NCBI GenBank assembly: GCA_945907045.1
Contig: CAMDSH010000002.1
Coordinates: 62,001-126,000, forward strand
Reading direction: 5' to 3'
Source of the DNA: Rhizobium sp. Q54
GTDB taxonomy: Bacteria; Pseudomonadota; Alphaproteobacteria; Rhizobiales; Xanthobacteraceae
DNA length: 64,000 nucleotides
Numbering within the stretch: position 1 is the stretch's first letter; each line of letters begins with the position of its first letter. This document shows positions 3,749 through 33,838 of this stretch, in pieces. Made by a program: the position numbers and the translations under genes. The notes under the pieces were generated by a model. It was not told the origin of the DNA. It was given only the letters and a program-made list of their open reading frames with translations, and searched no databases.

Positions 3749-3752
3749 CCGC

Positions 3753-15052: not shown

Positions 15053-15672
15053 TCATCGTCGATTATGGTCGGGGTAACCTCTACAGCCTTGGACAAGCAT
15101 TGCGCCATATTGGCGTAGAGCACGAAATTTCGGAGGACCCGTCTCGTCTCAGGGATGCGACCAAAATTATCGTGCCGGGTGTCGGAGCGTTTGGCGACGC
15201 AATGAAGGGGCTCGAGTCACGCAGTCTGGTAACGCCGATCAAAGAGGCCGCGGACCGCGGCACGCCGATGTTAGGCATCTGCCTGGGCATGCAACTGCTG
15301 GCGACCGAAAGCAGAGAGTTTGGCACGCACCCCGGACTGGAATTGATCCCAGGTGTTGTGAAGCGTCTACCGGAGGGTTCTGGTGATGCTGCCATGCGCG
15401 TGCCAAACGTCGGGTGGCGGACTTTGGATCCGGTGCGAAGTGATGCATACATGGGCGATCTAGATGCCGGGGCCATGGTATATTTTGTGCATTCGTATGC
15501 GCCTCATCCGACAGCATCAAAGCACGTTGCTGCGACAACTAACGTGAACGGCGAAAATATCCCCGCCATAATTCGCAACCGCAATGTCGTCGGATATCAG
15601 TTTCACCCTGAGAAGAGTGGACGAGCCGGCCTGAAATTGCTCCGGCGGTTTGTAGAATTCCGTTTTGCCTAA
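15049..15672 (+). CDS. HisH-like glutaminase, amidotransferase set 1 (probable CTG start)
   Basis: Class I glutamine amidotransferase that releases ammonia from glutamine. The nucleophile is Cys78 in 'GICLGMQLL' and the triad ends with His186 and Glu188 in 'QFHPEKS'. The first strand 'IIVDYGRGNLYSLGQAL' begins right after position 15049. No ATG, GTG or TTG exists there; the first in-frame TTG (15091) and the next one (15100) would both remove this conserved strand. The codon at 15049 is CTG and overlaps the HisF stop in CTGA, matching the ATGA overlap of set 2, so I annotate a CTG start. The length of 207 residues fits the family. Confidence 0.83.
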   Translation: MIIVDYGRGNLYSLGQALRHIGVEHEISEDPSRLRDATKIIVPGVGAFGDAMKGLESRSLVTPIKEAADRGTPMLGICLGMQLLATESREFGTHPGLELIPGVVKRLPEGSGDAAMRVPNVGWRTLDPVRSDAYMGDLDAGAMVYFVHSYAPHPTASKHVAATTNVNGENIPAIIRNRNVVGYQFHPEKSGRAGLKLLRRFVEFRFA

Positions 15673-15696
15673 GATGAAAATTCGGAGACCATAGGA

Positions 15697-18950: not shown

Positions 18951-20513
18951 ATGAACGATCGCATGAATTTGTCGTCAGTGAATAACGAGGGGCCTAAATG
19001 CGTATTATTGCTCTATCAGAAAATCTGGGGATGGCTGTACGAGGCATTGATTCCCCATATGCGGAATGAGTTCGGTACGCGGTTTATTATTCTGGCTCCT
19101 GCGTCAGCAGTTTTGCACCTTAATACCAACGTTTGCGGCCCGGAAGACGAAGTCATCGATCTTGCAGCATTGGAAAAGTCTGAAGAGCCTGCGGATACTT
19201 CTGCTGCAATGAAGGAAGGCGCCAGAAACGAAGAGCGTTACAACGTCAGCTATCTACGTGATCTGGTGCAACAGCTTCGAACCATCTCAGCCAATTATCT
19301 TACCCACTCGCCGATGAGCAACTACTCGGTCAGCCACATAGAGTCCTGGCCTCGAATCGTGAATCGTTTGAATTTGATGTTCGATTATTTCGGTAATTTG
19401 TTGTCCGAACGTGGTGTCGATCTCGTGATCTGCCGACCGGATATCGCCTTTTCGACGCTCGCGTGCGTTCACGTCGCAGCGGCGCGAGGCATTCCTGTTA
19501 CATTTGGCAAGGGTGTTCGGTATAAGGACTACTTGGGCTGGGCATGCGGTCCTTACGCTGAAAGCGATTACCTAGCGGAAACCTTTAAAACCATTCCCGA
19601 GTGCGAGCCAACACCGCGCGAAGAGCTGGTGCCACCCGGGGGATCGGGCCTTCGCTGGTCGCAGGCGAGGCGCCGCTACTCATTTTTCAATACCGCACGA
19701 GAGGTGCTTGTCCAGACGATCATTCACACTCTTTTTCTTTTCAAGGATATTCGCGAAGGTTATCGCCCTGGCACCCGGAGGCTGAGCTATAGCGGCGCGG
19801 TGCGCCAGCTGCTGCACGCCCGCAAAGTAGGCAACTGGATTGACAGTCACGGGGAAACCGACATTGAGGCTATCGCTTCGCAGCCTTACGTTTTGTTCTT
19901 GCTGCCTCAAGAGCCGGAGTTTTCAATTCAGTCACTCTGCAGGGAGTTTCCTCATACTTTTACGGTCGCGCAACAGCTGGCATTGTGTTTGCCACCGGGT
20001 ACGAGGCTCGTTATCAAGGAACATTCGCTGCTGACCGGGCGGAGACTCTCATTCTACCAGGACCTACTTCGACTGCCGAATGTCGTTTTGGCGCATCGGC
20101 TAGTATCTGGCATCGACTTGGCAGATCGCTCGGCCGCCGTTGCGACGATGAGTGGTACTACGGGAGTTGAGGCAACATTGTTGGGGAAGCAAGTCGTTCT
20201 GATTGGTCGGCACATCGAGTACGGGTTTCTACCGAACATTCAACGTGTCCGATCGTTCGACAATCTGCCGGAAATAATGCGTGAGGCACTGCGAGAGCGC
20301 ACGGACGCAGAAATCGAAGCAGTTCGGCGTGCCGGTTCAACCTATCGTGCTACTGTGGCTGCAATCTCATACTCCGCTCCGGGAACGCCACCGCTTAACG
20401 GTGATCGTCAAACCATCACCGACGCCGAGGTGGGAGATGCAATCAAGGCGTTGCTCGGAAACTATCGATTTCAAAAGTGGCAAGCGACCCAACAAAAAGT
20501 TGCTACGCAATGA
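18951..20513 (+). CDS. Unrecognised surface-glycan protein, possible GT-B transferase, 520 aa
   Basis: I do not recognise the family with certainty. The N-terminal half has a strand-rich Rossmann-like part ('VLLLYQKIWGWLYEALIP' at the start, 'GVDLVICRPDIAFSTLACVHVAAARGIPVTFG' near 160). The C-terminal half has 'YVLFLLPQEPE', 'LVIKEHS' and 'SAAVATMSGTTGVEATLLGKQVVLIGR'. The last two recall the phosphate or CMP-binding turns of capsule and Kdo-type GT-B transferases. The stop overlaps the ATG of the second HisF-like gene in ATGA, tying it to amidotransferase set 2. I infer that it may transfer the nonulosonic acid modified by that set. Confidence 0.5.
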   Translation: MNDRMNLSSVNNEGPKCVLLLYQKIWGWLYEALIPHMRNEFGTRFIILAPASAVLHLNTNVCGPEDEVIDLAALEKSEEPADTSAAMKEGARNEERYNVSYLRDLVQQLRTISANYLTHSPMSNYSVSHIESWPRIVNRLNLMFDYFGNLLSERGVDLVICRPDIAFSTLACVHVAAARGIPVTFGKGVRYKDYLGWACGPYAESDYLAETFKTIPECEPTPREELVPPGGSGLRWSQARRRYSFFNTAREVLVQTIIHTLFLFKDIREGYRPGTRRLSYSGAVRQLLHARKVGNWIDSHGETDIEAIASQPYVLFLLPQEPEFSIQSLCREFPHTFTVAQQLALCLPPGTRLVIKEHSLLTGRRLSFYQDLLRLPNVVLAHRLVSGIDLADRSAAVATMSGTTGVEATLLGKQVVLIGRHIEYGFLPNIQRVRSFDNLPEIMREALRERTDAEIEAVRRAGSTYRATVAAISYSAPGTPPLNGDRQTITDAEVGDAIKALLGNYRFQKWQATQQKVATQ

Positions 20514-21436
20514 CGTCATCGGTTCGGATCATCGTACGACTTGAGGTGAAGGGGCCAAATTTGGTGAAGGGTCTTTGTTTCGACGGTTTCCGCGTTTTGG
20601 GTCATCCTGAAACATTTGCTAGTATCTACGATGATGATGGCGCGGACGAATTCCTTTACGTCGATACGGTAGCCAGCCTCTACCAGCGCTCGCCTCAGTT
20701 CGATGTCATCCGGCGCATCGCGGCGAAGACGACGGTTCCGTTGACGGTTGCCGGCGGCATCCGCAGTATTGAAGACATCCATTCAGTGCTCCGAGCCGGC
20801 GCCGATAAGGTGGCGATCAATACGGCGGCGCTTGCCACTCCGGATTTTCTCAAGGTAGCGTCGGGTCGCTTCGGCTCGCAGTGCATCGCAGTTTCGATCG
20901 AGGCGCACCAAAATAGTAACGGCCAGTATGAGTGCTGGACGAATTTCGGAAGACAGAAATCGGGCGTCGATGTATTTGAATGGGCGGAACGAGTTGTCAA
21001 TTTGGGGGCCGGTGAGATCATTGTTTCGGCGGTGCATAATGATGGGCTCGGTGTCGGCTTCGATGTCGAACTCACGCGCCGCATTGCGACGGCTTCTCCG
21101 GTCCCGGTGGTGGCGTCCTGCGGCGCCGGCAGCCCGGAGCACTTTCGGGATGTGATCGTGAAAGGCAAAGCTGACGCGGTCGCCGCTGCTGCGATTTTTC
21201 ACTATCAGGCCGCGAAGCCAGTCGATCGCATGTGGATGTCTTATGATGGTGCGCAGTTGCGTAACGGCGACCCTGCAGATTCCGGAAATATCGAATTTTT
21301 GAATTGTGGGTACGGCGGCATCCGAGAGTTAGACGTTAAACCCACGTCCGTAGGTGATGTAAAGCGTTATCTGGCTGCGCACGGTCTGCCGGTGCGGATC
21401 TCAGCCGACGCCGTTCGCATTCAGGCATGCCCATGA
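20510..21436 (+). CDS. HisF-like ammonia-accepting subunit, amidotransferase set 2
   Basis: The 308-residue TIM barrel is a paralog of the set 1 HisF ('VRLEVKGPNLVKGLCFDGFR', 'VPLTVAGGIRSIEDIH', 'ADKVAINTAALA'). The first-strand Asp of HisF is Glu here ('LEVKG' against 'LDIKG'). It is 49 residues longer than set 1: most of the extra length lies between 'IFHYQ' and 'SVGDVKRYLAAHGLPVRI', which matches the C-terminal end of the set 1 protein, with a short tail added after it. The insert contains 'NIEFLNCGYGG'. The ATG at 20510 overlaps the previous stop. It would pass ammonia from the HisH-like protein to the WbpG-like protein. Confidence 0.83.
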   Translation: MTSSVRIIVRLEVKGPNLVKGLCFDGFRVLGHPETFASIYDDDGADEFLYVDTVASLYQRSPQFDVIRRIAAKTTVPLTVAGGIRSIEDIHSVLRAGADKVAINTAALATPDFLKVASGRFGSQCIAVSIEAHQNSNGQYECWTNFGRQKSGVDVFEWAERVVNLGAGEIIVSAVHNDGLGVGFDVELTRRIATASPVPVVASCGAGSPEHFRDVIVKGKADAVAAAAIFHYQAAKPVDRMWMSYDGAQLRNGDPADSGNIEFLNCGYGGIRELDVKPTSVGDVKRYLAAHGLPVRISADAVRIQACP

Positions 21437-22098
21437 TCGCGGCAGCCCTTGTTATCGTCGATGACGGTATGGGAAACCTGTTCAATTTACAGCGTGCCTT
21501 TGAGCGGCTGGATATTGAAGCCAAAGTTGCAACAGATCCGGGCCAAGTCGAGCGGGCTGGCGCTATTGTTTTGCCGGGCGTTGGTGCATTCGATACGGCC
21601 ATTCACACCTTGCGCGATTGCGGATTGGTCCCAGTTATTCGGCGCGCAGCGGTCAGTGGGATTCCCGTGCTCGGGATATGCCTGGGCATGCAATTGCTAG
21701 CAACCGAGTCGAATGAAGGCGGCAATTTTCCTGGCCTTGATCTCATTCCTGGCGCAGTCAGGCGTTTGAGGTCTCCCGATGAACAAACTTCAAACTTCAA
21801 AGTGCCGCAGATGGGCTGGAATGAGATTTATTCGGATGTTGACGCATCGCGGGGCGACACCATACTTGACGAAATTCCCGACGAAACTAAATTTTATTTC
21901 CTGCACAGCTATGTTGTGGATCTTGAAAATCGCTCGGACCTTCTGGCTCGCTGCAGATATGGCCGAGATGAATTTCCGGCCGTCGTCCAGCGCGAAAATG
22001 TGTTCGGCTGCCAGTTTCACCCCGAACGGAGCGGCGCTATGGGTCTGAAGCTACTCCGGAATTTTGCTGCCTTAATTAAACGGAAAGATATCCGCTGA
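21433..22098 (+). CDS. HisH-like glutaminase, amidotransferase set 2
   Basis: Class I glutaminase domain of 221 residues, with Cys83 in 'GICLGMQLLA', the oxyanion strand 'VLPGVGAFD' and 'QFHPERSG' carrying the triad His and Glu. The ATG at 21433 overlaps the HisF-like stop in ATGA; an ATG at 21427 two codons earlier is also possible. Its stop overlaps the start of the WbpG-like gene, so all three genes of the set are translationally linked. The N-terminal strand 'VIVDDGMGNLFNLQRAF' aligns with 'IIVDYGRGNLYSLGQAL' in set 1. Confidence 0.88.
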   Translation: MIAAALVIVDDGMGNLFNLQRAFERLDIEAKVATDPGQVERAGAIVLPGVGAFDTAIHTLRDCGLVPVIRRAAVSGIPVLGICLGMQLLATESNEGGNFPGLDLIPGAVRRLRSPDEQTSNFKVPQMGWNEIYSDVDASRGDTILDEIPDETKFYFLHSYVVDLENRSDLLARCRYGRDEFPAVVQRENVFGCQFHPERSGAMGLKLLRNFAALIKRKDIR

Positions 22099-23285
22099 TG
22101 TCTGTGATTCTAGATCGCCAATTTGAAGACCTTTCTAAAGTGATCGCGTTTTGCCGAAATTGTGTCGTATCAAACCAGCGCCCCCGAACTCTCCTGAACA
22201 AGGAAGGAGTTTGTTCGGCGTGCGTTTGGGCGCATGAGAAGGATCATGTTGTTGACTGGTTTGCGCGCGAACGCGAGCTTGCGGCGTTATGTGATCGATA
22301 TCGTAGCAAAGATGGCAGCTTCGACGTGATTGTGCCGAGTAGCGGCGGAAAAGATTCTTGCTTCGTTGCTCATCAATTGAAACACGTTTACGGCATGCAC
22401 CCGCTGTGTGTGACCTGGACGCCATTTGAATGGACCGATATCGGATGGCAAAATCTGCGTTCCTTTCACAACTCGGGGTACGACATCATCATAGGGCAGC
22501 CAAACGGCCAAATTCATCGCAAGCTGGCTAGGCTGGCATTCGAGCTGAAGGGTGACGCGTGGGAGCCGTTTGCCTATGGTCAAAAAGCATGGGCCTTTCA
22601 TATTGCGCTGCGTTTCGGGGTCCAGTTGATCATGTACGGTGAGAACGGTGAGTTGGAATATGGTGGATCCGACAAATACAAGAACCGGCCGAAAGAAGGA
22701 CCGGAAGAATGGACAGAGGGATATTATAAGGGAACGTCGGTCGATCGGTTGATCGAAACCGGAGTTCAACAAGGTGTGCTGACTCCGGATGACGCTAAGG
22801 CGGAAACTATTTCCTGGTACAAACCGCCGGCACCTGAGGCAGTGCAAAAAGCCGGCATCGAAATGCACTGGTTTTCCCATTACAAGAAATGGACGCCGCA
22901 GGAAAACTACTACTATGCGGTTCGCCATTGCGGCATGCGCCCAAATCCAAATGGACGCACCGAAAGCACGTATACGAAATACGCTAGCCTAGATGACAAG
23001 GCCGACGGTTTTCATTTTTATCTCGCCTACATGAAATTTGGTCTTGGTCGGTGCTCCCGCGATGCTCAGCAGGATATTCGCCGAGGGCATATTACTCGCG
23101 AGGAAGGCGTGCGGCTGGTTCATCGATACGACCACGAATTTCCGCACGAGCATTTTCAGTGGTTTCTCGACTATCTGGCGATAGATGAGAAAAAATTCTG
23201 GCAAGTTATGGATATGTATCGAAGTGCCTCCAATGTTTGGGAGCGTGAAGGTGATAAATGGCAGCTGACGGCTTTGGTGCGCTGA
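22098..23285 (+). CDS. N-acetyl sugar amidotransferase (WbpG/PseA-like), set 2
   Basis: The 395-residue PP-loop protein has Cys19, Cys22, Cys39 and Cys42 as a probable zinc cluster and the loop 'PSSGGKDS' (80-87). It shares 'CVTWTPFEWTDIGWQNL', 'PNGQIHRKLARLAF', 'HYKKWTPQENYYYAV' and 'YTKYASLDDK' with set 1 at corresponding places. The middle region differs, with 'YKNRPKEGPEEWTEGYYKGTS' in this copy only. The sequence gap between the copies suggests different sugar substrates, for example legionaminic against pseudaminic derivatives. It is followed by a convergent gene. Confidence 0.87.
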   Translation: MSVILDRQFEDLSKVIAFCRNCVVSNQRPRTLLNKEGVCSACVWAHEKDHVVDWFARERELAALCDRYRSKDGSFDVIVPSSGGKDSCFVAHQLKHVYGMHPLCVTWTPFEWTDIGWQNLRSFHNSGYDIIIGQPNGQIHRKLARLAFELKGDAWEPFAYGQKAWAFHIALRFGVQLIMYGENGELEYGGSDKYKNRPKEGPEEWTEGYYKGTSVDRLIETGVQQGVLTPDDAKAETISWYKPPAPEAVQKAGIEMHWFSHYKKWTPQENYYYAVRHCGMRPNPNGRTESTYTKYASLDDKADGFHFYLAYMKFGLGRCSRDAQQDIRRGHITREEGVRLVHRYDHEFPHEHFQWFLDYLAIDEKKFWQVMDMYRSASNVWEREGDKWQLTALVR

Positions 23286-23306: not shown

Positions 23307-24257
23307 TTAAGATTTTTGGTACCCGAAAAAATCCCGATACGGTTCAAGATGCTCATCGATGAGATCAAGCTCTCGTTGGTTCAAAGCGTGAATGGGCCTT
23401 TTGGCGGATGTATAGTCAATGCCGCTTAGTGCTGTGAAACTCGACGCACCTGGCCAAGTCTGGCCAAGTACAGTCGGTCTAATCAATACATCGTCAAAAG
23501 CAATCCCGAGCCAATCGGCAATCCTCCTCATGATCGGCTCTGTTTCTCGAATGAGATCTTCGAACTTGATAACGAGTCTGCGCTTTGGGTCTGTATTTTG
23601 AACGCGATTCGCCATGGCGTTCAGTTCCGCAAGGCATATGGCAAACGCGGGCCAGGTAATGCGGTTTCTGCCGCGCTTATCGCGGCTGCGTTTCAGACTA
23701 TCGAGGCATCTGGCCGGATCGCGGGAAACGAATATCGCGCGCGCCTCCGGTATGCTTTCGACCGCTGCCGCAGCTGACTTGCCGTAGTCTGGCGCCATCA
23801 TGCAACAATAACGTCGCGGTTCTTGTTCGAGTCCCGCGATGCAGGCTCGCGCCAGAACCTGCCAGAGACCGCTGATCGATTCGAAGCGCCCCGCTTTCAG
23901 AACATCAAGAAAAGCGTTCTCGGACCAAGGTGCCGGGATCTTGATTTCAGAAACAGAGCCGACGCCGGGTTCGTGAAACCCCTTTTCAACGGGTGGCACA
24001 ATCTGTTTGTCGCGAATACCGAAAAGAAATTCATCGGCGTTCCTCTTGGCCGAGCCGACCATGATCTCTTGGCCGGACGGCGTGAGCTTCTGAGCATTGT
24101 AAAGATATTCGAAGAAAAGTCCTTCATCCATGAGCCAGGAAATATCTCGGTGACCTTCGACCAAAGAATAAAGCAAACTTTTACCGGAGCGCGGCGGGCC
24201 GCTGATGATCAGCGGTATGCACTTATCGGCGGCGCTCGCGACACGAGCCGCACTCAT
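23307..24257 (-). CDS. PAPS-dependent sulfotransferase family protein
   Basis: The family moves sulfate from PAPS to a hydroxyl or amine. The 316-residue protein has the 5'-phosphosulfate loop 'SGPPRSGKS' (19-27) and the 3'-phosphate motif 'IFVSRDPARCLDSLKRS' (175-191), the two hallmarks of the fold, and the C-terminal 'VIKFEDLIRETEPIMRRIADWLGI'. I chose the ATG at 24257, as the longer open frame to 24506 has no sulfotransferase features in its first 83 residues. It lies opposite to its neighbours and diverges from a second sulfotransferase-like gene. The acceptor is unknown; a surface glycan is likely. Confidence 0.82.
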   Translation of the reverse strand: MSAARVASAADKCIPLIISGPPRSGKSLLYSLVEGHRDISWLMDEGLFFEYLYNAQKLTPSGQEIMVGSAKRNADEFLFGIRDKQIVPPVEKGFHEPGVGSVSEIKIPAPWSENAFLDVLKAGRFESISGLWQVLARACIAGLEQEPRRYCCMMAPDYGKSAAAAVESIPEARAIFVSRDPARCLDSLKRSRDKRGRNRITWPAFAICLAELNAMANRVQNTDPKRRLVIKFEDLIRETEPIMRRIADWLGIAFDDVLIRPTVLGQTWPGASSFTALSGIDYTSAKRPIHALNQRELDLIDEHLEPYRDFFGYQKS

Positions 24258-24351
24258 CTCGAAAATCCGGCAAGGTGGCGATGCGTTTCGTTTCCATCTA
24301 CCCGAGCGAAACCGGATAACCGAATTTGCCAGATCATGCGACGAACCAATA

Positions 24352-24365
24352 ATTGTTTGAACAAT
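24352..24365. promoter_or_regulatory. Dyad in the gap between divergent sulfotransferase genes
   Basis: ATTGTT-TG-AACAAT is a perfect 6-base dyad with a 2-base centre, in the 251-base gap that must hold the promoters for both genes. A regulator site is possible. I see no convincing -35/-10 pair near it. Confidence 0.3.
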
Positions 24366-24508
24366 GACGATGTCATGTTGTTGTACCCTGACGACGTGAA
24401 TGGAAATAGCACACGCGCGAATATCAGCAATGCGAAGACATCTTTTCCAACTATCCTGCTTAAGGTCAAGTCTGCTCCGGTCTACCGCACTGAACAGGCT
24501 CTGCACCG

Positions 24509-25471
24509 ATGATGTCCTTGTTCCCGGGTCCGTCCATCGCCCGAGAGTTGGTCCTGATTGATGGGATTACCAGAGCAGGTAAGATGTTGATCGCGAAACT
24601 TGTATCAGCTTTCGAGGGGGTAGATTTTTTTCAATATCAGCCGATTTTAGAGCATGTGCCAATCCTTTGGCGACTTGGCGTCCTCGATACAAACAGCGCC
24701 GCCATTTTTTGGAGGCTGAATGCGAGTATGGCCGTACTCGACCGGGCGACGGGTCGCAACTTGAACTTTCGGCTCGAAGACTCGAGCAGTATTTCGAAGG
24801 CCCTCGACGCTGACCGATATCTTGAGCGAGCGCGTGATCCCGATTTCGATGGTCTTCTAAAGCGCTTTAACGAAGATAGCAGGGTGCCGGCATTTCTGAC
24901 TCATGAGACATTGCCGCACGCTGAGCTGATATTCTTGGCCGCACCGGAGGCACGTATTGTGGAGGTCGAACGCAATCTCGCGGATCTAGCTTTTTCATGG
25001 TTTCAGCGAGGTTGGGGTGTTCGCTTTGGTTCGGATGAGAAGGCCCTTATTCCGGTGGTGGCAGTTGATGGAAATCCGACGCCGTGGTTTGCGACCGATT
25101 TCGCTGAGACCTTCGGACAGTCATATGCTGCGATGTCGCCGGCCGATCGCTGCGCGGCAAGTATTTTGACGCTGCACCGTGAAAGCCAAAGAGCATTGGC
25201 GAAACTGCCCGAAGATCAATCTCGAAGAGTTCATGTGATCAGCTACGAAACATTGTTGTGTGACCCACATGGTGTAATGGACGGCATTGGAGCGTTCCTC
25301 GAGACCGAGCCGCTTCCAGGCATGAGTGAAGTATTGGCACGCGAAGGGCTAACTGGGTCCGAAAAAACAAATCCAAAATCCAGCCGGAAGGCTCTCGGTG
25401 AGGTGGTGTCTCCCGCTCTGGCGGCAAGTCTCGATGCTGCCATGGAACAGCAAGTTGCTCAGAAACGCTGA
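24509..25471 (+). CDS. Probable sulfotransferase, second and divergent copy
   Basis: The 320-residue protein has a candidate PAPS loop 'LIDGITRAGKMLIAKLV' (17-33) and a helix-following segment 'ARIVEVERNLADLAFSWFQRG' that stands where the 3'-phosphate motif RDPxDxxxS would lie. The Arg-Asp pair is Arg-Asn here. Near the C-terminus 'VHVISYETLLCDPHGVMDGIGAFL' resembles the sulfotransferase 'xYExLxxDPxxxxxxIxxFL' signature. It is weaker than the reverse-strand gene, yet the context supports the call. It lies 27 bases upstream of the kinase-sulfurylase fusion and is probably in the same transcript. Confidence 0.65.
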   Translation: MMSLFPGPSIARELVLIDGITRAGKMLIAKLVSAFEGVDFFQYQPILEHVPILWRLGVLDTNSAAIFWRLNASMAVLDRATGRNLNFRLEDSSSISKALDADRYLERARDPDFDGLLKRFNEDSRVPAFLTHETLPHAELIFLAAPEARIVEVERNLADLAFSWFQRGWGVRFGSDEKALIPVVAVDGNPTPWFATDFAETFGQSYAAMSPADRCAASILTLHRESQRALAKLPEDQSRRVHVISYETLLCDPHGVMDGIGAFLETEPLPGMSEVLAREGLTGSEKTNPKSSRKALGEVVSPALAASLDAAMEQQVAQKR

Positions 25472-25498: not shown

Positions 25499-27649
25499 AT
25501 GCCGAAAGATCTTTTTTGCACTCTGGGGCCTGCATCGCTCAACGAGCAGGTTATACCTCGGCTTGCTGAGCTCGGCGCGACGCTTTTTCGAGTCAATTTG
25601 TCGCACACCAAGATCCTGGATTTGAAGAAAACCATCGGCATCATTCAATCACTGACCGATGTGCCAGTGTGTCTGGATACCGAAGGCGCTCAGATCCGAA
25701 CAGGCGATTTTGCTTTCGGTCCCGTCGAACTTAGAGAGAACAGCTTTGTAGAGGTTTCGATCAACCTCGAACCAGGCAGCGCGAACAGCTTTAATATTTA
25801 TCCACGCGGCATCGTCCGCGAATTGGAAGTTGGTGATTTCGTCAGCATCGATTTCAATTCAGTATTGGCCCAAGTGGTGGACATGCATGAAGGCGGCGCC
25901 ACCCTCCGGGTCCTGAATGGAGGTAAGATAGGCGGCAATAAAGCCATAACAGTCGCGCGCGACATCGCCATGCCGGCGCTCACGGAGAAAGACGTGACTG
26001 CGCTGGAGATCGGTAAGCTAATGGGTGTCCGGCACTTTGCGTTGTCGTTCGCCAATCAATCCGGGAATGTCGATGAGATCAGGCGGCGAGTCGGTGTGGA
26101 CAGCTACATCATATCCAAAATTGAAACCTTGCAGGGCTTAGCTAATTTGGAAGCAATCGCGAAAAAATCCGATTGCCTTCTGATCGACCGAGGCGACCTT
26201 TCGCGTCAAGTGGCGCTTGAAAACATCCCGGCCACACAGAAATTTATCATTCGAACCGCGAAGTCTCTGAAGACGCCCGTTGTGGTCGCCACCAATCTTT
26301 TGGAATCGATGGTCACTACACCGTTGCCGACACGGGCGGAAGTGAATGACGTATACAATACGTTAGCCGACGGCGCCGACGGATTGGTGTTGGCAGCTGA
26401 AACCGCAATTGGTCAGTTTCCAATACGGGCGGCGAAGATGATCGCTACAATAATTCGGAGCTTTGAGCGAACCGCTGTCGAAGATCGGCCGCACAAAAAT
26501 CAAGAGATATCGTTTCTTGTGCCGCCTCATGGTGGTGCGCTGATCAACAGGGTCAACCGGGACATGACCGGCCTATCTGATCTGCCCCAAGTGACGGTCA
26601 GTATGACTGACTTGTTGGATTGCGAACAAGTTGCGATTGGGACTTACTCGCCGCTTACCGGCTTCATGAACCGGGAGACGTTAGAATCCGTTTTATCGTC
26701 GCATCGACTGCCGGATGGAACGATTTGGACGATGCCCATCGTCCTGCAGATCAGTGAATCTGCCGCAAAAGCATTTTCCGTAAGGGACCGGATTGCTCTG
26801 GTTTCGGAGAGTGGCGACATTCATGCCGTACTTGATGTCAGCGACATGTACCGACCCGAAATGCAGAAGTTAGCCCAGCAATGGTTTGGGACATCGAGTT
26901 CGGATCATCCTGGCGTCGCGCGTGTATTTGGTGCGGGACCGGTATTCGTCGGCGGGAACATTACCCTGACTCAGCATATCCCCTCACAATTCCGACACTA
27001 TGCTTTGACTCCGGCCGAAACACGGATTCTCTTTGCGCATAAGGGATGGACCAAGGTCGCGGGCTTCCATACGCGAAACGTCATTCACCGCGCGCACGAA
27101 TATCTTCATAGGAAGACGTTACGCGATACCAAGGTCGATGGATTGTTAATCAGCCCGGCGATTGGGCCGAAAAAGAAGGGTGACTTTCACGCGGATTCAA
27201 TACTCGAAAGTTACCAATTGATGTTTGATTTTGGCTTGTATCCGATCAATCAAGTTGTGCTTGGTGCATTTTCCACATACTCGAGATATTCGGGACCGCG
27301 TGAAGCGGTGTTTACAGCCCTTTGCCGCAAAAACATGGGTTGCAGTCATTTCATCATGGGTCGCGATCACACTGGCGTTGGCAACTACTATGCGCCTGAC
27401 GCCCTGCCAATGCTGATGGCGCAAATCGGGGACCTTGGAATCGAGCCGGTGATTTACAACGCAGTTGCCTACGATCCTGTAGCGAATGACTATACGGAGA
27501 CGGCAAATTCGGGGACTGTTCCGATCAGCGGGTCCGATGTGCGCCGTTTACTCGAAAATGGAGAAAATGTGCCGGAATGGCTGGCCCGCGATATCGTCGT
27601 GGACATGTTGCGCAGGAAGATGGCAGCCGGCCAGCCCGTGTTCCAGTAA
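25499..27649 (+). CDS. Pyruvate kinase-like / ATP sulfurylase fusion
   Basis: The 716-residue protein joins two enzymes. Residues 1-325 form a pyruvate kinase A/B domain: 'RVNLSH' (31-36), 'DTEGAQIR' (60-67, usually DTKGPEIR), 'SKIE' with Lys207 and Glu209, 'DRGDL' (230-234) and 'VATNLLESM' with Thr265. The allosteric C domain of normal pyruvate kinases is absent. Residues 335-716 form a single-chain ATP sulfurylase: the PUA-like part with 'LTGFMNRE', 'FHTRNVIHRAHE' (523-534, usually FQTRNPxHRAHE) and 'MGRDHTGVG' (620-628). The second half makes APS from ATP and sulfate; the first could remake ATP from PEP and ADP. It follows a sulfotransferase-like gene and, with cysC, completes a PAPS supply route. 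Confidence 0.9.
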   Translation: MPKDLFCTLGPASLNEQVIPRLAELGATLFRVNLSHTKILDLKKTIGIIQSLTDVPVCLDTEGAQIRTGDFAFGPVELRENSFVEVSINLEPGSANSFNIYPRGIVRELEVGDFVSIDFNSVLAQVVDMHEGGATLRVLNGGKIGGNKAITVARDIAMPALTEKDVTALEIGKLMGVRHFALSFANQSGNVDEIRRRVGVDSYIISKIETLQGLANLEAIAKKSDCLLIDRGDLSRQVALENIPATQKFIIRTAKSLKTPVVVATNLLESMVTTPLPTRAEVNDVYNTLADGADGLVLAAETAIGQFPIRAAKMIATIIRSFERTAVEDRPHKNQEISFLVPPHGGALINRVNRDMTGLSDLPQVTVSMTDLLDCEQVAIGTYSPLTGFMNRETLESVLSSHRLPDGTIWTMPIVLQISESAAKAFSVRDRIALVSESGDIHAVLDVSDMYRPEMQKLAQQWFGTSSSDHPGVARVFGAGPVFVGGNITLTQHIPSQFRHYALTPAETRILFAHKGWTKVAGFHTRNVIHRAHEYLHRKTLRDTKVDGLLISPAIGPKKKGDFHADSILESYQLMFDFGLYPINQVVLGAFSTYSRYSGPREAVFTALCRKNMGCSHFIMGRDHTGVGNYYAPDALPMLMAQIGDLGIEPVIYNAVAYDPVANDYTETANSGTVPISGSDVRRLLENGENVPEWLARDIVVDMLRRKMAAGQPVFQ

Positions 27650-27729: not shown

Positions 27730-28755
27730 ATGAACACAGAAAAATTCAATTTGGATGGCCAAAGCATACTTGTGACCGGCGGCACCGGTTCATTTGGTCA
27801 GAAAATGGTTGAGCACCTTCTCTCGCATCATAAGCCACGCAGGCTGGTAGTGTTCAGCCGGGATGAGCTCAAGCAATACGAAATGGCGCAGCGCTATTCG
27901 GAGAGCGAGTATCCATGCTTGAGATATTTCATAGGCGACGTCCGTGACGGAAAAAGGGTTTCACGCGCTTTTGCTGGCGTGGACATTGTAATCCATGCGG
28001 CTGCTATGAAACATATCACCGCGGCAGAATACAATCCGACCGAATGCATTGCAACGAATGTCCTGGGCGCAGAAAATGTGATCGATGCTGCAATCGAAAA
28101 CGACGTTGGGCGTGTCATCGCGCTTTCAACCGACAAGGCAGCAAATCCTATCAATCTTTATGGGGCGACTAAGCTGTGTTCCGACAAGCTGTTTGTTGCA
28201 GCAAACAATCTTGCGGGCAAGCACCAGACACATTTTTCCGTGGTTCGTTACGGAAACGTTGTTGGGTCGCGTGGTAGCGTCATTCCATTGTTCAAGCAAC
28301 TGGCGGCCAACGGGCAACGAATTTTACCAGTGACCCATCCGGAGATGAGCCGTTTTGTGATCACCTTGGATCAAGGCGTCAGTTTTGTCCTAGGCTCACT
28401 TGAGCAGATGCTGGGCGGCGAAATATTTATTCCGAAGCTGCCGAGTATGAAAGTCATCGATTTGATCCCACTGATCGCGCCGGGTGGTGGGTACGATGTC
28501 ATAGGTATCCGGCCCGGTGAAAAATTGCATGAAGTGATGATCCCGGGCGAGGAGTCGCGGAACTGCATCGATATGGGTGATCACTATGTCCTTCAGCCCC
28601 CGCATCATTGGTGGAATATGTCAAAATTTGTTGAGCGCGTTAAGGAGCGAGGGAAGCCGATCGAGACGGCATTTGAATATGCAAGCAATACCAACAATTG
28701 GTGGGTTTCCGGTGATGAGTTGAGTGCGCTTGTTCAGGCGGTGGCGGCGCGTTGA
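27730..28755 (+). CDS. pseB: UDP-GlcNAc 4,6-dehydratase, inverting (PseB)
   Basis: PseB converts UDP-GlcNAc to UDP-2-acetamido-2,6-dideoxy-L-arabino-hexos-4-ulose, the first step to pseudaminic acid. The 341-residue SDR has 'TGGTGSFGQKM' (16-26), 'AAMKHITAAEYNP' and 'LSTDKAANPINLYGATK', which are the PseB/FlaA1 signatures, including the Asp-Lys pair and the Tyr-x-x-x-Lys. The end has 'IGIRPGEKLHEVMI'. It lies 80 bases after the kinase-sulfurylase fusion, so it may have its own promoter. The rest of the pse genes follow at once. Confidence 0.93.
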   Translation: MNTEKFNLDGQSILVTGGTGSFGQKMVEHLLSHHKPRRLVVFSRDELKQYEMAQRYSESEYPCLRYFIGDVRDGKRVSRAFAGVDIVIHAAAMKHITAAEYNPTECIATNVLGAENVIDAAIENDVGRVIALSTDKAANPINLYGATKLCSDKLFVAANNLAGKHQTHFSVVRYGNVVGSRGSVIPLFKQLAANGQRILPVTHPEMSRFVITLDQGVSFVLGSLEQMLGGEIFIPKLPSMKVIDLIPLIAPGGGYDVIGIRPGEKLHEVMIPGEESRNCIDMGDHYVLQPPHHWWNMSKFVERVKERGKPIETAFEYASNTNNWWVSGDELSALVQAVAAR

Positions 28756-28758
28756 ACT

Positions 28759-29733
28759 GTGCGCTGGGGATTTCGGGTAGCAACTGATTCGCGAGTGGGT
28801 GCCGGCCATGTCGTCCGTTGCCGGGCACTCGCCGCTGCTCTCGATGAACCGACGATCCTTTTCGCCGATCCATACGACGAAATTTCCGCCAACCGTTTTC
28901 ATTGGTCGACAGAGACCATCTTCGAGCCGATGCGCGACGCTGCAACCAACGCGATCGAAGCTCTCGCGCAGGGGCAGATTGATGTTCTGATTTTCGACGC
29001 GTATTTGATGAGTGACGGCGTGGTCGAGGATGCTGCTACTGCCGGTGTTACTGCGGTATTTCGAGACGGAAGGCCATACGGGCCCGAAGCGATCACAATT
29101 GATCCCAATCCTGGTGCAAGTGATGCGGCGGGGGTGTTATCAGGGCCGACCTACATGCCGCTCGCCCGTCCCTTTGCAGCGCTGCATGATGAGGCGAGGC
29201 ATTACGAATATTCGAAAGCTGATCCGGTCAATGTGCTGGTGGCGTTCGGTGCGCGAGACGGCGCAGACATCACAAGCGCGGTTTTGGACGAAATGAATAA
29301 ATTATCTCGTCCACCCAGGACAAAGGTCGTGCTTGCATCATCCTCTGTTCACGCGAAGACGGTGGCGGCAAAGGTGGCTGAGTTTTCGTGGGTTGAAATA
29401 TTGGAAGCCCAGCATGACATCGACGCGCTGTTAGGCGGATTTGATCTGGCTATCGGAGCGCCGGGCGTTTCCCAATTCGAGCGCGCTTGTTGTGGCTTGC
29501 CTACCATTTTGGTGCCTCAGAACGAAAAGCAAAAGCCGCTCGCAGGCGACTGGGCGAATAGCGGTGCAGCGATTTGCTCGTCGGTGGCGCCTGGGGCCAT
29601 TGCGAGTGCTCTAATCAGCCTCCTTGGTAATCCTTCTCGCATCGCTGAGATCCGTCAGCGCTGTCTGTCCATGGTAGACGGCAGGGGGGCGGCTCGTTTG
29701 TCGGAAGCCTTGAAACAAAGAGCGGTTCGTTAA
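28759..29733 (+). CDS. pseG: UDP-sugar hydrolase of pseudaminic acid synthesis (PseG)
   Basis: PseG removes UDP from UDP-2,4-diacetamido-2,4,6-trideoxy-L-altrose. The 324-residue GT-B-fold protein has 'VGAGHVVRCRALA' with the catalytic His near residue 17, 'VLIFDAYL', 'VLVAFGARDG' and the C-terminal 'DLAIGAPGVSQFERACCGLPTILVPQNEKQ', matching the MurG-like nucleotide-binding loop of PseG. The start is GTG at 28759, 3 bases after pseB. It precedes pseC, an order different from the canonical pathway order but common in such loci. Confidence 0.9.
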   Translation: MRWGFRVATDSRVGAGHVVRCRALAAALDEPTILFADPYDEISANRFHWSTETIFEPMRDAATNAIEALAQGQIDVLIFDAYLMSDGVVEDAATAGVTAVFRDGRPYGPEAITIDPNPGASDAAGVLSGPTYMPLARPFAALHDEARHYEYSKADPVNVLVAFGARDGADITSAVLDEMNKLSRPPRTKVVLASSSVHAKTVAAKVAEFSWVEILEAQHDIDALLGGFDLAIGAPGVSQFERACCGLPTILVPQNEKQKPLAGDWANSGAAICSSVAPGAIASALISLLGNPSRIAEIRQRCLSMVDGRGAARLSEALKQRAVR

Positions 29734-29738
29734 TTTCG

Positions 29739-30911
29739 ATGTCGATTCGTTTTCCTTATTCACGTCCCGAAGTGACAGATGCCGACATTCGTCTGGTCGT
29801 AGAATCAATGCAGGGCCAGTTTCTCACGCAAGGGCCGATGCTTGAGGCATTTGAGTTTGCACTTGCGCGGACGCTGGGGGCCAAGAATGCGATTGTCTGT
29901 AATTCCGGCACTGCTGCGCTGCATCTTGCCTATCTTGCTCTCGATCTTGGAGTTGATCGTGGTCTGTTGACGAGCCCCATCACCTTTCTCGCGACGGCGA
30001 GTGCTGCTCGCATGTGCGGCGCCCCAGTGGTTTTCGCGGATGTAGACCCCGTCATGGGGAACTTGACGCCGGACATGGTCAAGGCGGCGCTGAGCTCAAC
30101 CAAAGAGCGAATCGCTGCGGTCACGGCCATCCATGTCGGCGGCCGGCCGTGCGACATGCCCGAACTTCGGAAGCTCACAAATGAAAGAGGCCTCGCGTTG
30201 ATCGAGGACGCATGTCATGCGCCGCTCGCGTCTTATCGCGGCTTGAATGGAGAAAGTCATTACGTCGGCGCCTGCGCGCATTCTGACATTGCGGTATTCA
30301 GTTTTCATCCGATCAAGCATGTGGCGATGGGTGAGGGCGGCGCCGTCCTGACCAATGACGTTAAGATTGCCGAACGTGTTCGTACGTTGCGCAATCACGG
30401 CATGACTCGTGATCCGCGAACTTGGGTGAATGCACCGGAACCTGATGCACCTTGGTATTATGAAATGCACGAGATCGGATGGAATTATCGTGCGTGCGAG
30501 ATGCAATGTGCGCTTGGGTTAAGTCAGTTGGCGCGCGTTGAAGACGGTATCCACCGGCGTCGTCATATTGCCGGGCAGTATGATCGTCTGCTTTCGGGCC
30601 TCAACCACCTCACGCCGCCGCCGCCGTCAGAGGGCAATGTCTGGCATCTTTATCCCATTGCCATCGACTTCGAGGCTGTTGGTAAAACGCGCGGGCAGTT
30701 GATGACTGCGCTAGCGGCGCGGGGGATCGAAACACAGGTGCACTATATCCCGGTGAATCGTCAGCCCTATTATGAAAGTCTGGGAGCCAACGCGACGCCC
30801 GGTGCTGATCTTTACTACCAGCGCACGCTAAGCATTCCGATGTATCCAGGCCTTTCTGACGTTGACGTTAAATATATCGCTGACAGCATTCGCGACGTGC
30901 TTTGCTATTGA
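29739..30911 (+). CDS. pseC: UDP-4-keto sugar aminotransferase (PseC)
   Basis: PseC installs the 4-amino group on the PseB product with PLP and glutamate. The 390-residue DegT-family protein has 'IVCNSGTAALHLAYLAL', 'SPITFLATASAARMCGAPVVFADVDP', 'LIEDACHAPLAS' and the Schiff-base Lys in 'FSFHPIKHVAMGEGGAVLTND'. The 'FHPIKH' context is usual for PseC and related enzymes. It starts 5 bases after pseG. The same family occurs at 10.4 kb (LegC) and 60.8 kb (WbpE-like), so the assignment rests on its place between pseG and pseI. Confidence 0.9.
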   Translation: MSIRFPYSRPEVTDADIRLVVESMQGQFLTQGPMLEAFEFALARTLGAKNAIVCNSGTAALHLAYLALDLGVDRGLLTSPITFLATASAARMCGAPVVFADVDPVMGNLTPDMVKAALSSTKERIAAVTAIHVGGRPCDMPELRKLTNERGLALIEDACHAPLASYRGLNGESHYVGACAHSDIAVFSFHPIKHVAMGEGGAVLTNDVKIAERVRTLRNHGMTRDPRTWVNAPEPDAPWYYEMHEIGWNYRACEMQCALGLSQLARVEDGIHRRRHIAGQYDRLLSGLNHLTPPPPSEGNVWHLYPIAIDFEAVGKTRGQLMTALAARGIETQVHYIPVNRQPYYESLGANATPGADLYYQRTLSIPMYPGLSDVDVKYIADSIRDVLCY

Positions 30912-30930: not shown

Positions 30931-32817
30931 ATGAACAATTCGTTCGCTTTTGTTGACACCCTCGCGGGCGTCGCGGCAGCACGTCAGCGGCGATTCATTT
31001 GCATTGCAACGGACTATCCAATGTTGGCGCACGATTTGCGTGCGGGTAAAAATATTCAAGACATGAGCATCCATCTACAACAGGCCGAGGCGACGCAGAT
31101 TGGTCGGCGCGCCACGGACATATTGCTAGCGCTCGATTCCAAACTCGAACACGGTGAAGCATCGATCCGTTACGGCGGGCGTGCCGGCCCTCTCAACGTG
31201 GCAATCGTATTGCGCGCGCTTTTGAATGGTCTGATTCAGCGCGGCCTTATGGCTCAGCGGAGTCTGGCCAACCACGGGCCGGGTCCATTCGTGCTAATGG
31301 TTCCCGACCACCCGCGTTGGCATATCATCGCGCCTTGGAACATACCTCGCTTTGCTTGTCCTTACCGTCCGCTTGCTGAAGCGGGTTTTTTTGACAACAG
31401 GCCAATCGAGCATGTGCCAGTCTCCTTTGAGCCGCCGACCGATTTCAATGACACCGCAATCGACGATTTGTGGTTGCGTGTGTCGCTGGTTCCGACACCG
31501 CAGGCCGTGTATGAACTCGCGAAGCGGATCAACCTGACTGAGTGGAAACAGAGCCCGATTGCTATCGGTAAGCTCGGCGAAGCGCTGAGCGAGACGTTAC
31601 CTTGGCTTGCCATCAAAGGCCTTGGCTTTAGCAAGTTTAGACTGCCGGCTTATGCGGGCGCTGTATCGCTGCCATTTGGAGCGGCCGTCCAAGCAGATCC
31701 CTGGCTCGACAAACATGCTGGTCCCATCTTGCGTGAGGGCTTGGCCGCACTTGGGCTTTTTCCCGAATATGCTGTAAGCGCCATTGCGGGCGTGGTTCTT
31801 CAACACCTCTCGGCTGGCTTGGCCGGCCTTCGTCCATTGATCGAAACCCTCGAAGCGGAGCTGGACAGGACATTTGGTAAGACAAAGCGTCTTTGCACGC
31901 TCATGACAAGCGGCGTTTTCGGCCCGATGGGGACTCAGCTGATCTCGCTCTGCCGTGAACGAGGCATTGTTCTTGTCGATTTCGAACATGGCACAACCAC
32001 GGGAATTGCGGAGTCCGTGGAGCGACGGCTGAGTACCTCAGAAGTTACGACTTGTGATGTGCTGATGGCGTCATCGCCGCGTGCCGCCCGGTCATTCACC
32101 CGCGCACCAAGAAACCGAAATGAAATCAAGGTTATAGGCTTGGCCGATCAAACCCGACGCATCGGATTTCGCCCCTTGCAACGGCATTTGGCGCGCCGCC
32201 GGCTGAAATTGCGGCGAAGCGAAACTGTCGTCATGCATGTCTCAACTTTGCTCTATGGCGGCAATATGCGCTCCGCCTACGATAGTTCCGTTGAGCATTA
32301 CGTCTTCTCGACCGAATCGAAGCTCCTCACCGATGTCTATGGGCGGATCTCGAAGACTGTTCTTTACAAACCTTACCCGACACAACGTTACCCGCATTCT
32401 GCTAGCTATCGAGATATATTTCCCCTTGCTCCCAATATACGACTGATCGATTGGGCGGACTTTCGCTACGTACGCTCGGCCGCCGATATTATCGTGACCG
32501 AGGCGAATTCCAGCACGATCGGTTGGTGCGTCGGCGCTGGAGTTCCAATGGTTCATCTGGGTTCTAGACGAGTCAATGCATTGCTTGACGACGAACTGCG
32601 ACAGCAATTTTCCGATTCATTTTTTACAATTGATATGGACAATCCGAATTGGACGCGCGCGCTGTCGAATCTGCTGGGTCGCAAAATGCGTGACATTCAA
32701 GGAGAGTGGCTGGATAAGCGCCACGCACGTGAGAAATTATTGGCAGACGGCATATTCGGTCCGCCTGGATCGGTCGGAAGGCGGGCGGCGAAAATGATTA
32801 GAAGTTTACATGACTAA
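30931..32817 (+). CDS. Unrecognised 628-aa protein of the pse operon, possible nonulosonate transferase
   Basis: No named family is evident to me. The N-terminal 300 residues are mixed. From about 335 to 620 a GT-B-like pattern appears: 'GIVLVDFEHGTTTGI', 'VMHVSTLLYGGNM', 'VLYKPYPTQRYP', then 'AADIIVTEANSSTIGWCVGAGVPMVHLG', close in pattern to nucleotide-sugar-binding loops of the LIC12162-like and capsule transferase groups. Its stop overlaps the start of pseI by 8 bases, so it is firmly inside the operon. I infer that it transfers the pseudaminic acid derivative made by its neighbours. Confidence 0.5.
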   Translation: MNNSFAFVDTLAGVAAARQRRFICIATDYPMLAHDLRAGKNIQDMSIHLQQAEATQIGRRATDILLALDSKLEHGEASIRYGGRAGPLNVAIVLRALLNGLIQRGLMAQRSLANHGPGPFVLMVPDHPRWHIIAPWNIPRFACPYRPLAEAGFFDNRPIEHVPVSFEPPTDFNDTAIDDLWLRVSLVPTPQAVYELAKRINLTEWKQSPIAIGKLGEALSETLPWLAIKGLGFSKFRLPAYAGAVSLPFGAAVQADPWLDKHAGPILREGLAALGLFPEYAVSAIAGVVLQHLSAGLAGLRPLIETLEAELDRTFGKTKRLCTLMTSGVFGPMGTQLISLCRERGIVLVDFEHGTTTGIAESVERRLSTSEVTTCDVLMASSPRAARSFTRAPRNRNEIKVIGLADQTRRIGFRPLQRHLARRRLKLRRSETVVMHVSTLLYGGNMRSAYDSSVEHYVFSTESKLLTDVYGRISKTVLYKPYPTQRYPHSASYRDIFPLAPNIRLIDWADFRYVRSAADIIVTEANSSTIGWCVGAGVPMVHLGSRRVNALLDDELRQQFSDSFFTIDMDNPNWTRALSNLLGRKMRDIQGEWLDKRHAREKLLADGIFGPPGSVGRRAAKMIRSLHD

Positions 32818-33838
32818 TATGATCTCTATTGCTGGGCGCGAGATTAGCACGGACACGCCGTGCTTCATCATCGCCGAGATCGGAATCAATCACGGCGGTA
32901 ACGAGAAAGTTTGCGCAAACATGATATCGCAGGCCGCGGCTGCGGGCGCCGATGCAATAAAGCTACAAACGGTGACGCCGGAGGAAAGCTATCACCCTGA
33001 TACCGACAGCTATCGGTTGTTTCGTGAAAGCGTGCTGTCGCGTGAAGCGCTGCAGCGATTGATGGCGCAAGCGCGCTCAGCGGGTATTATTTTATTTTCC
33101 ACGCCCGGCGATCCGACAGCTTTGCGATTGATGTGTGACCTTGGGATGCCGGCAATTAAGATTTCTTCGGGACTTCTGACCAATCTGCCGCTCATCCGTT
33201 TGGCCGCTGCGTCTGGTAAGCCCATGATCCTGTCGACCGGTATGGCGCGCTACGACGAGGTGCAAGCTGCAGTTGTCGCAGCGCGGGCGTCTGGATGCCA
33301 AGAGCTGGCATTGTTACAATGCACGTCGCTGTATCCGGCGCCTACAGAAACGCTGAATCTGAGGGCCATGGATAGTCTAAAGGGCATAAGCTCCGGCCCA
33401 GTCGGTTTTTCCGATCATCACGCAGGTTATCTCGCCTGTGTCGCCGCCGTTGCGCATGGGGCGACATTGATCGAGAAACACTTCACCCTCGATGCAACGG
33501 TACCGGACGCGGATCACGCCATCTCTATCGAGCCGCACGAATTCTTCGAGATGGTCAAGACCATTCGCGATGTTGAGGCGATGCTCGGCAGACCGGAAAA
33601 GGCGCCGGTAGAGGCCGAAGTGCGGTTGCGCGCCGGGCGTCATAGACGATTGGTGGCGGCACGAAATATTAAAGCAGGCGAAACGATCCGTGCAGACGAT
33701 TTGTATCTCATGCGGCTTCCGGCGGATCATGAAGGCCTTTCCGCAAGTCGTATCGAGGATGTGGTCGGGCGGCGGGCAACCCGCCCGATTGCAAAATTTT
33801 CTGGTCTTACCGAAGACATGATCATCGGTGTAGCGTGA
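32810..33838 (+). CDS. pseI: Pseudaminic acid synthase (PseI, NeuB family)
   Basis: PseI condenses the free diacetamido-trideoxy-L-altrose from PseG with PEP. The 342-residue protein shows 'IIAEIGINHGG', 'AIKLQT', 'AIKISSGLLTN', 'VGFSDHHAG', 'IEKHFTLDATVPDADHAISIEP' and the SAF domain near 280-335. 'VPDADHAIS' rather than the 'GPDHxAS' of LegI is seen in PseI-type enzymes. The ATG at 32810 is 8 bases inside the upstream gene; an ATG at 32819 is an alternative. The next gene overlaps by GTGA. Confidence 0.9.
   Translation: MTNMISIAGREISTDTPCFIIAEIGINHGGNEKVCANMISQAAAAGADAIKLQTVTPEESYHPDTDSYRLFRESVLSREALQRLMAQARSAGIILFSTPGDPTALRLMCDLGMPAIKISSGLLTNLPLIRLAAASGKPMILSTGMARYDEVQAAVVAARASGCQELALLQCTSLYPAPTETLNLRAMDSLKGISSGPVGFSDHHAGYLACVAAVAHGATLIEKHFTLDATVPDADHAISIEPHEFFEMVKTIRDVEAMLGRPEKAPVEAEVRLRAGRHRRLVAARNIKAGETIRADDLYLMRLPADHEGLSASRIEDVVGRRATRPIAKFSGLTEDMIIGVA

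Follow-up and report, generated by a model that had tools for sequence, protein, structure and literature searches.

Architecture of the Fusion Gene

The window analysed here is a stretch of 64,000 nucleotides from Rhizobium sp. Q54 (contig CAMDSH010000002.1), a genome whose assembly amounts to 3.3 Mb in 74 contigs and is 91% complete. Within it, one uninterrupted frame, from ATG to TAA, encodes a protein in which the barrel of a pyruvate kinase (PK) precedes both domains of an ATP sulfurylase (SAT). The gene cluster around it (PseB, PseC, PseG-like, NeuB) is one of nonulosonate glycan synthesis, and the features that concern us are, in window positions:

3708-4361, forward strand: APS kinase (CysC) gene; PF01583, 223.8 bits at window 3831-4280
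23307-24506, reverse strand: sulfotransferase gene beside the fusion; PF13469 (Sulfotransfer_3), E 4e-16
24509-25471, forward strand: sulfotransferase-like gene, whose end lies 27 bases before the fusion; PF13469 27.4 bits (cut-off 27), PF00685 24.7 bits (cut-off 22)
25499-27649, forward strand: PK-SAT fusion gene, 716 amino acids
25511-26431, forward strand: PK barrel, residues 5-311; Pfam PF00224, E 3e-62
26522-26974, forward strand: PUA_2 domain of SAT, residues 342-492; Pfam PF14306, E 7e-42
26996-27616, forward strand: ATP-sulfurylase catalytic domain, residues 500-706; Pfam PF01747, E 5e-63, with the HTRN...HRAH and GRDH motifs
27730-28755, forward strand: PseB-type UDP-GlcNAc 4,6-dehydratase, first gene downstream of the fusion; TIGR03589, 492.9 bits, above cut-off
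28759-29733, forward strand: PseG-like sugar nucleotide hydrolase; TIGR03590, 100.8 bits, under the cut-off of 153.55
29739-30911, forward strand: PseC-type aminotransferase; TIGR03588, 432.2 bits, above cut-off
32810-33838, forward strand: NeuB-family nonulosonate synthase; PF03102, E 1.5e-72

All three Pfam domains of the fusion protein score far above cut-off, and together with the unbroken frame they bear out the sequence-only reading of this gene as the A/B domain of a PK followed by a single-chain SAT. The same reading had the allosteric C domain of the kinase missing, and the Pfam scan agrees, with no PK C domain match in the 716 residues and the SAT beginning at about residue 340; the APS kinase domain (PF01583) also has no match within the fusion protein, CysC being the separate gene at 3708-4361. 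Against the NCBIfam models, the PK half reaches 258.1 bits with TIGR01064 (pyruv_kin), under the curated cut-off of 306.4, and the SAT half 313.3 bits with TIGR00339 (sopT), just under the curated cut-off of 322.95, so that each half is a divergent member of its family. Both halves fold in an AF2 model built from a 49-row alignment (mean pLDDT 91.4, pTM 0.82), and the best 50 matches listed in a comparison with PDB structures are all PKs or ATP sulfurylases; the top SAT structure among them is 8a8d (Methanothermococcus ATPS, target TM 0.91, 36% identity), and several PKM2 chains match the model with 31% identity, at 2.4-3.2 A over about 340 columns.

With pyruvate kinase (EC 2.7.1.40; PF00224) the fusion thus shares the barrel, the B domain and the core catalytic residues, and differs in the absence of the C domain, in its changed motifs and in its score with TIGR01064. 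With the single-chain ATP sulfurylases (Sat/SopT; PF14306 plus PF01747) it shares the whole domain pair and the TRN, HxxH and GRDH motifs, but has His for the Gln of QTRN and sits behind a PK. The bifunctional PAPS synthases (PAPSS1, 2gks), in which SAT is joined to APS kinase, likewise gather steps of sulfate activation in one chain, whereas here the partner is a PK and the APS kinase a separate gene. Among the papers listed from open PMC full text, none describes, to judge by title and start of abstract, a PK-SAT or PK-CysC protein or a sat-PK operon, although subscription papers, preprints and domain databases may hold one; in the main text of a survey of frequent metabolic fusions (PMC4921024), PK is unmentioned and an APS kinase/SAT-subunit fusion is named.

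Sulfate Activation in the Host Genome

A search of the whole genome with PF01747 gives a single match, the fusion itself, which is the sole single-chain sulfurylase found, and APS kinase has one strong match, the gene of the window, and a weak one of 20 bits on another contig. The only Sulfotransfer_3 match among those listed is the gene at 23307-24506, in a search that is not exhaustive, as it missed the weak gene upstream of the fusion that hmmscan places just over the cut-off. PF01507, which we take to be the family covering the CysD and CysH types, has no match in this genome and was matched in 14/14 control genomes, an absence that, at 91% completeness, could be a gap in the missing 9%. 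On the evidence of this assembly, the fusion activates sulfate for sulfation and not for reduction. One ordinary PK is present elsewhere in the genome, so that glycolysis does not have to rely on the fused one.

The NeuB-family synthases use PEP, which is a possible link between the fusion and NeuB; NeuB-like genes are clustered in the flanks of only 7 of the loci described below, and directly adjoin the fusion in L012/L131. Trios of HisF-like, HisH-like and amidotransferase genes, in one glycan cluster, are repeated at 14273-16962 and 20477-23285 of the window and occur at L132:6509-9375; domain tests cover only two genes of the second trio, and the others are labelled by eye.

Distribution of the Fusion

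A pattern-based alignment scan of 84,980 species genomes left 80 loci, and with five from other searches these make 64 fusion loci besides the window and 21 loci with the PK part only, some of which are cut by contig ends. Among the 64 there is at least one duplicate (one contig gives both L013 and L043), and 46 are left at less than 80% PK identity. The loci come from Alpha-, Beta-, Gamma- and Deltaproteobacteria, Bdellovibrionales, Planctomycetota, Omnitrophota, Verrucomicrobia, Elusimicrobia, KSB1, Chloroflexi (Caldilineaceae), Bacteroidetes, Marinimicrobia and Salsipaludibacter, and the isolates among them belong to Methyloversatilis, Mesorhizobium, Sinorhizobium, Ensifer, Pseudaminobacter, Nitratireductor and Thauera. 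A tblastn search of plasmids gave two full-length matches, in Ensifer and Sinorhizobium, 52% identical and with CysC directly behind.

The fusion is rare in an evenly drawn sample of the class (3/385 genomes, the window's own included); in a sample of the phylum 3/398 genomes gave a match, again with the window's own, and one of these matches is to SAT only, from a split locus. Two of the dangers named for the sequence-only reading, an assembly error joining two genes and a lack of relatives with the same order, are excluded, together with a chance fusion, by the recurrence of PK-then-SAT in these 64 relatives of many phyla, isolate genomes included. Three DTEGAQ homologues from Actinomycetota (L090-L092) are without Lys207, Glu209 and Asp233, and adjoin genes that by eye resemble those of riboflavin and of rRNA methylation.

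Conserved and Changed Residues

At R31, N33, S35, D60, R67, K148, K207, E209, D233, T265 and E301 the PK half agrees with the solved PKs, and we take these positions to be the catalytic set (in PKM2, R73, N75, S77, D113, R120, K207, K270, E272, D296, T328 and E364). The eight that had been read as kept from the letters of the window (Arg31, Asn33, Ser35, Asp60, Lys207, Glu209, Asp233, Thr265) are all among them. Nine core residues (R31, N33, D60, R67, K148, K207, E209, T265 and E301) are intact in 64/64 other fusions, in spite of an identity of 40-58% to the window protein among the 48 members aligned, which argues for selection for catalysis. Ser35, Thr61 and Asp233 are also intact in 61/64, so that all twelve residues checked are kept in that number, the others showing single deviations (Ser35Ala in L093, Thr61Ser in L014, Asp233Glu in L059). 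A dead PK half would appear to be ruled out by these intact residues.

Around this core, the PK half of the window protein has a signature, DTEGAQ at residues 60-65 and IDRGDLS at 229-235; in other words, it reads DTEGAQ for DTKGPE/DLQGPK, IDRGDLS for VARGDLG, ATN for ATQ and LAAET for LS(G/A)ET. Glu62, Ala64, Gln65, Asp230, Ser235, Asn266 and Ala299 (positions 115, 117, 118, 293, 298, 329 and 362 of PKM2) are found in 64/64 fusions of the PK alignment, whereas the 29 ordinary PKs of the comparison, a sample from the window's phylum only, have Gln/Cys/Lys at 62, Pro at 64, Lys/Glu at 65, Ala at 230, Gly/Ala at 235, Gln/His at 266 and Ser at 299. At six of the positions (62, 65, 230, 235, 266 and 299) the residue of every fusion occurs in 0/29 ordinary PKs; Asp230 and Ser235, on either side of Arg-Gly-Asp, are the Asp/Ser part of the signature. 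Furthermore, in PKM2 numbering, Ala293 (29/29), Gln329 (28/29) and Ser362 (29/29) of the ordinary enzymes are Asp, Asn and Ala in all 64 fusions.

In the SAT half, the TRN, HxxH and GRDH motifs are kept with respect to the solved sulfurylases, and the Gln of QTRN is His524 (HTRN), a residue present in 58/64 other fusions. That this motif begins with His, and that the Lys of DTKGPEIR is replaced by Glu (the fusion reads DTEGAQIR), had both been stated at the outset and hold in the alignments. The further statement that both halves are altered is right as to the substitutions and wrong if damage is meant, for Glu62 and Gln65 recur in 64/64 and His524 in 58/64 of the other fusions, and changes so conserved (DTEGAQ, HTRN) define a subfamily and are not decay.

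Decay does occur in the SAT half of some relatives: the eight SAT residues checked are complete in 56/64 other fusions, and the catalytic motifs are degraded in the other eight (L014, L026, L047, L049, L056, L059, L065 and L068), which rules out a SAT half that is always active. All eight keep the nine PK core residues, and six of them keep all twelve, so that the PK would not be merely the helper of its fused SAT; to judge from the alignments, it is the more constant half, and probably has a role beyond serving that SAT.

Association with Sulfation Genes

In 34/64 loci a CysC gene is found no more than 700 bp from the fusion; in the other 30, some of which are short loci, none was found within that distance. 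When the two neighbours on each side were counted in 60 dereplicated loci, fused and stand-alone (L070, L082, L090-L092, L095 and near-copies left out), the 113 proteins downstream included 19 APS_kinase, 17 Sulfotransfer_3 and 6 Na_H_Exchanger matches, and the 107 upstream 7 Sulfotransfer_3 matches; these are raw counts with no matched background, and low ones, since ORF calling misses genes in GC-rich loci. The sulfotransferase labels are here Pfam matches, and two genes that are sulfotransferase-like by eye and have no Pfam match (L131:7215-8099 and L167:2902-3753) do not enter the counts. The claim that the fusion belongs to a sulfation module is sustained by these ties to APS kinase and sulfotransferases across genomes.

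The same partners are also met in other arrangements. PK is fused to APS kinase, without SAT, in L081 (PK at 40-346, APS_kinase at 374-522), is split from SAT in L015, and adjoins cysC in L080 and L176, two loci in which no sat gene was seen. There are, moreover, unfused PKs in sat-PK operons that share the Asp/Ser signature of the fusions, with the order sat then PK in the operons and PK then SAT in the fusions; cysC precedes sat in 9/10 of the longer operon loci (none was seen in L169), and the operon of L128 runs sulfotransferase-cysC-sat-PK-TauE, the last label being given by resemblance. In two stand-alone relatives, L074 and L079, no sulfation gene was recognised nearby.

The strength of the association was estimated with a scan for IDRGDL followed by Ser-like codons, made at the DNA level and blind to context, in the 385 genomes of the class. 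It gave 42 places in 38 genomes, 26 of them in no PK-matching frame and 16 in PK homologues, of which 11 lie directly downstream of sat, 3 are fusions (the window's included), 1 is beside cysC and 1 is at a contig edge (G405). The control consisted of 30/33 ordinary PK genes, with about 1.5 kb of flank, from a separate sample of 31 genomes; ARGD is present in 30/30 of them and sat or cysC in 0/30. Signature PKs that can be assessed are therefore linked to sat or cysC, or fused, in 15/15 cases against 0/30 for ordinary PKs (Fisher p 3e-12), a value to be read as a strong association and not as an exact probability, because the genomes include relatives, which do not count as independent, and the two samples are not alike.

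This subfamily of PKs is thus recognisable by its sequence (IDRGDLS, plus DTEGAQ in the fused branch) and marks sulfation gene clusters, and its members could be annotated as pyruvate kinase and miscounted in glycolysis.

As to other neighbours, a cation/proton antiporter gene is found near fusions of several phyla, in L025 (12230-13597, Na_H_Exchanger) and 18 other loci, and L022, L083 and L073 have TauE/SafE permeases close to genes of the PK type.

Origin of the Signature

The DTEGAQ family (fused, split and stand-alone) and the operon PKs, which have a normal length of about 475 amino acids where the frame is clear, form one clade each. In a quick tree, from which L082, L095, L122 and near-copies were left out, all 81 rows that are not ordinary PKs fall on one side of a branch (SH-aLRT 91, not starred). 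When the ten signature columns are taken out, together with L169 and L090-L092, the join between the DTEGAQ family and the operon PKs is lost and the two clades remain, and the ordinary PKs, E. coli PykF included, are no longer on one side of a branch. The Asp/Ser signature could have arisen once or twice.

Proposed Function

We propose, with a probability of about 0.64, that the fusion is a sulfate-activating enzyme with its own PEP-driven ATP-recycling unit, which would make PAPS for glycan sulfation, and that the subfamily is probably an undescribed kind of PK that supplies the sulfation machinery with ATP. The sequences show the fusion, its conserved machinery and the link of this class of PKs to sat, cysC and sulfotransferases; the PEP-to-ADP reaction, the pulling effect and the glycan target are what we infer. 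SAT yields APS and PPi, and APS kinase yields PAPS and ADP. Accordingly, the following series of steps could be envisaged: (i) the C-terminal SAT half would turn ATP and sulfate into APS and PPi; (ii) the CysC of the same gene cluster would convert APS into PAPS, with release of ADP; (iii) the N-terminal PK half would make ATP locally from PEP and that ADP; (iv) the removal of ADP would keep the APS kinase going, so that APS would be drained and the unfavourable sulfurylase step pulled, the removal of PPi being left to a pyrophosphatase elsewhere; (v) and finally, PAPS would feed the adjoining sulfotransferases, giving a sulfated surface glycan that contains nonulosonate.

Since SAT releases PPi and no ADP, the PK cannot recycle a product of SAT directly. 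The initial idea that a fused ATP-remaking unit pulls the sulfurylase could therefore be maintained in an indirect form, through CysC, from which the ADP comes, and has to be abandoned in its direct form. A study of in vitro PAPS cascades (PMC9885120) gives the same products for the two enzymes, and describes how, without PK/PEP regeneration, an ADP peak was seen and PAPS was practically missing, while with it PAPS rose. Those cascades share with our proposal the recycling by PK and PEP of the ADP of APS kinase, which raises the yield of PAPS, and differ in that they were built by chemists from separate enzymes, where here there is one natural gene or operon. PAPS synthesis is hampered by an unfavourable equilibrium and by the build-up of products, for which chemists add PK and PEP, and many bacteria appear to carry this same solution in one gene or operon; the subfamily also offers a single-chain sulfation catalyst. 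The design, with the PK fused to SAT rather than to CysC, is not an obvious one, and this weighs against the proposal, as do the changed PEP pocket and K+ signature, the eight fusions with degraded SAT motifs, the 30 in which CysC was not found within 700 bp, and the stand-alone relatives L074, L079 and L090-L092.

A serious, if rather improbable, alternative is that the PK-like half transfers phosphoryl groups but has a different substrate, some other donor or acceptor from the sulfation pathway, for instance in the recycling of PAP or with a donor other than PEP. It draws on the rebuilding of the pocket in which the PEP carbon skeleton sits (Asp for Ala293, Asn for Gln329, Ala for Ser362), with substitutions in 64/64 fusions and 0/29 ordinary PKs, on the Asp/Ser signature that recurs in the sat-linked operon PKs, and on the PK core that stays intact where SAT has decayed. 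Ala293, Gly298, Gln329 and Ser362 of PKM2 are PEP-site contacts in a docking study (PMC11207066). Several of the changed positions line the PEP site, so that the use of PEP or ADP by the fused PK is not certain, and the changed pocket (Asp230, Asn266, Ala299), which the sequence-only reading had not noticed, would leave its exact substrate open and is the chief doubt about our proposal. However, the phosphotransfer and metal residues are kept in the window protein, and all twelve in 61/64 relatives; a different substrate is possible with such a pocket, but Asp230 could also replace the proton delivery of the lost Ser362 network and leave the reaction unchanged, and we know of no biochemistry for any PK with this Asp/Asn/Ala switch. 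Two K+ signatures are known among PKs, T113/K114/E117/T120 or L/Q/K/L in rabbit numbering, according to PMC8835810, and the fusion, with Thr/Glu/Gln/Thr, matches neither, so that its dependence on K+ is not predictable.

Less probable still is a role of the PK half in sensing or scaffolding, in which it would bind PEP or ATP and tune SAT and CysC, or hold a complex together, with no useful catalysis of its own. Such a role would suit a PK deprived of its own allosteric C domain, and has a precedent in the fungal ATP sulfurylase, which carries a dead APS-kinase-like regulatory domain; against it, nine catalytic residues are invariant over 64 fusions, from which selection for catalysis would follow, and most of the stand-alone forms and the two tabulated operon PKs keep the catalytic residues, the exceptions being L090-L092. 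That the halves are functionally unlinked, joined by chance or by an artefact of assembly, deserves practically no credence: PK and SAT do share no direct product-substrate pair except ATP, but the same order in 64 loci, isolates included, the split and operon forms with the same partners and the 15/15 against 0/30 of the signature test already refute it.

SAR11 and Phage-Like Forms

In three SAR11 loci (L083, L086 and L089), cysC, a PK and a nucleotidyltransferase of 117-121 amino acids with a HIGH motif are found together, and L083 additionally carries a sulfotransferase and TauE. The nucleotidyltransferase genes, of about 120 amino acids, lie between or beside cysC and the PK-like gene:

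L083:9630-9989, SAR11 nucleotidyltransferase
L086:9630-9983, SAR11 nucleotidyltransferase
L089:11467-11835, SAR11 nucleotidyltransferase

This small protein may be a minimal sulfurylase. Its model is moderate (pLDDT 74.5) and its nearest solved folds, phosphopantetheine adenylyltransferase, FAD synthetase and NadM, match with E 0.001 or worse, so that this role is a guess.

A search of viral sequences gave no match with the window protein alone, and five loci, L183 and L184 among them, with the alignment. On the IMG/VR contig of L184 (3842-5862), overlapping genes of phage-like appearance encode a sulfotransferase, a PK-like protein with DTEGAQ and IDRGDLS, and a nucleotidyltransferase of 122 amino acids with a HIGH motif; relatives of the PK apparently exist in some phages. 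In L183 (2523-5966, on an IMG/VR contig of 88 kb) an SMC/AAA-type gene neighbours the PK-like gene, and a P-loop kinase is also present.

A broader and decidedly tentative proposal, which we think improbable as a whole, is that the Asp-Ser PKs catalyse a sulfation-specific, non-glycolytic reaction, in which PEP or another acid phosphate would be coupled directly to a step of sulfate activation or of the recycling of PAP/PAPS, as part of a portable cassette that would consist of a sulfotransferase, the PK, an APS kinase and either a nucleotidyltransferase or a sulfurylase and would travel through bacteria, SAR11 and phages, with the nucleotidyltransferase of about 120 residues replacing SAT. 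Independently of this, the SAR11 and phage forms point to a possible minimal sulfurylase.

The PHROG of the P-loop kinase of L183 (phrog_10255, "kinase") also matches the nucleotidyltransferase of L184, in its C-terminal part, and this shared family suggests a putative fusion family of phage kinases and nucleotidyltransferases. In L087 (10954-11727), a single frame of 257 amino acids joins a P-loop kinase to that same nucleotidyltransferase, which forms the C end.
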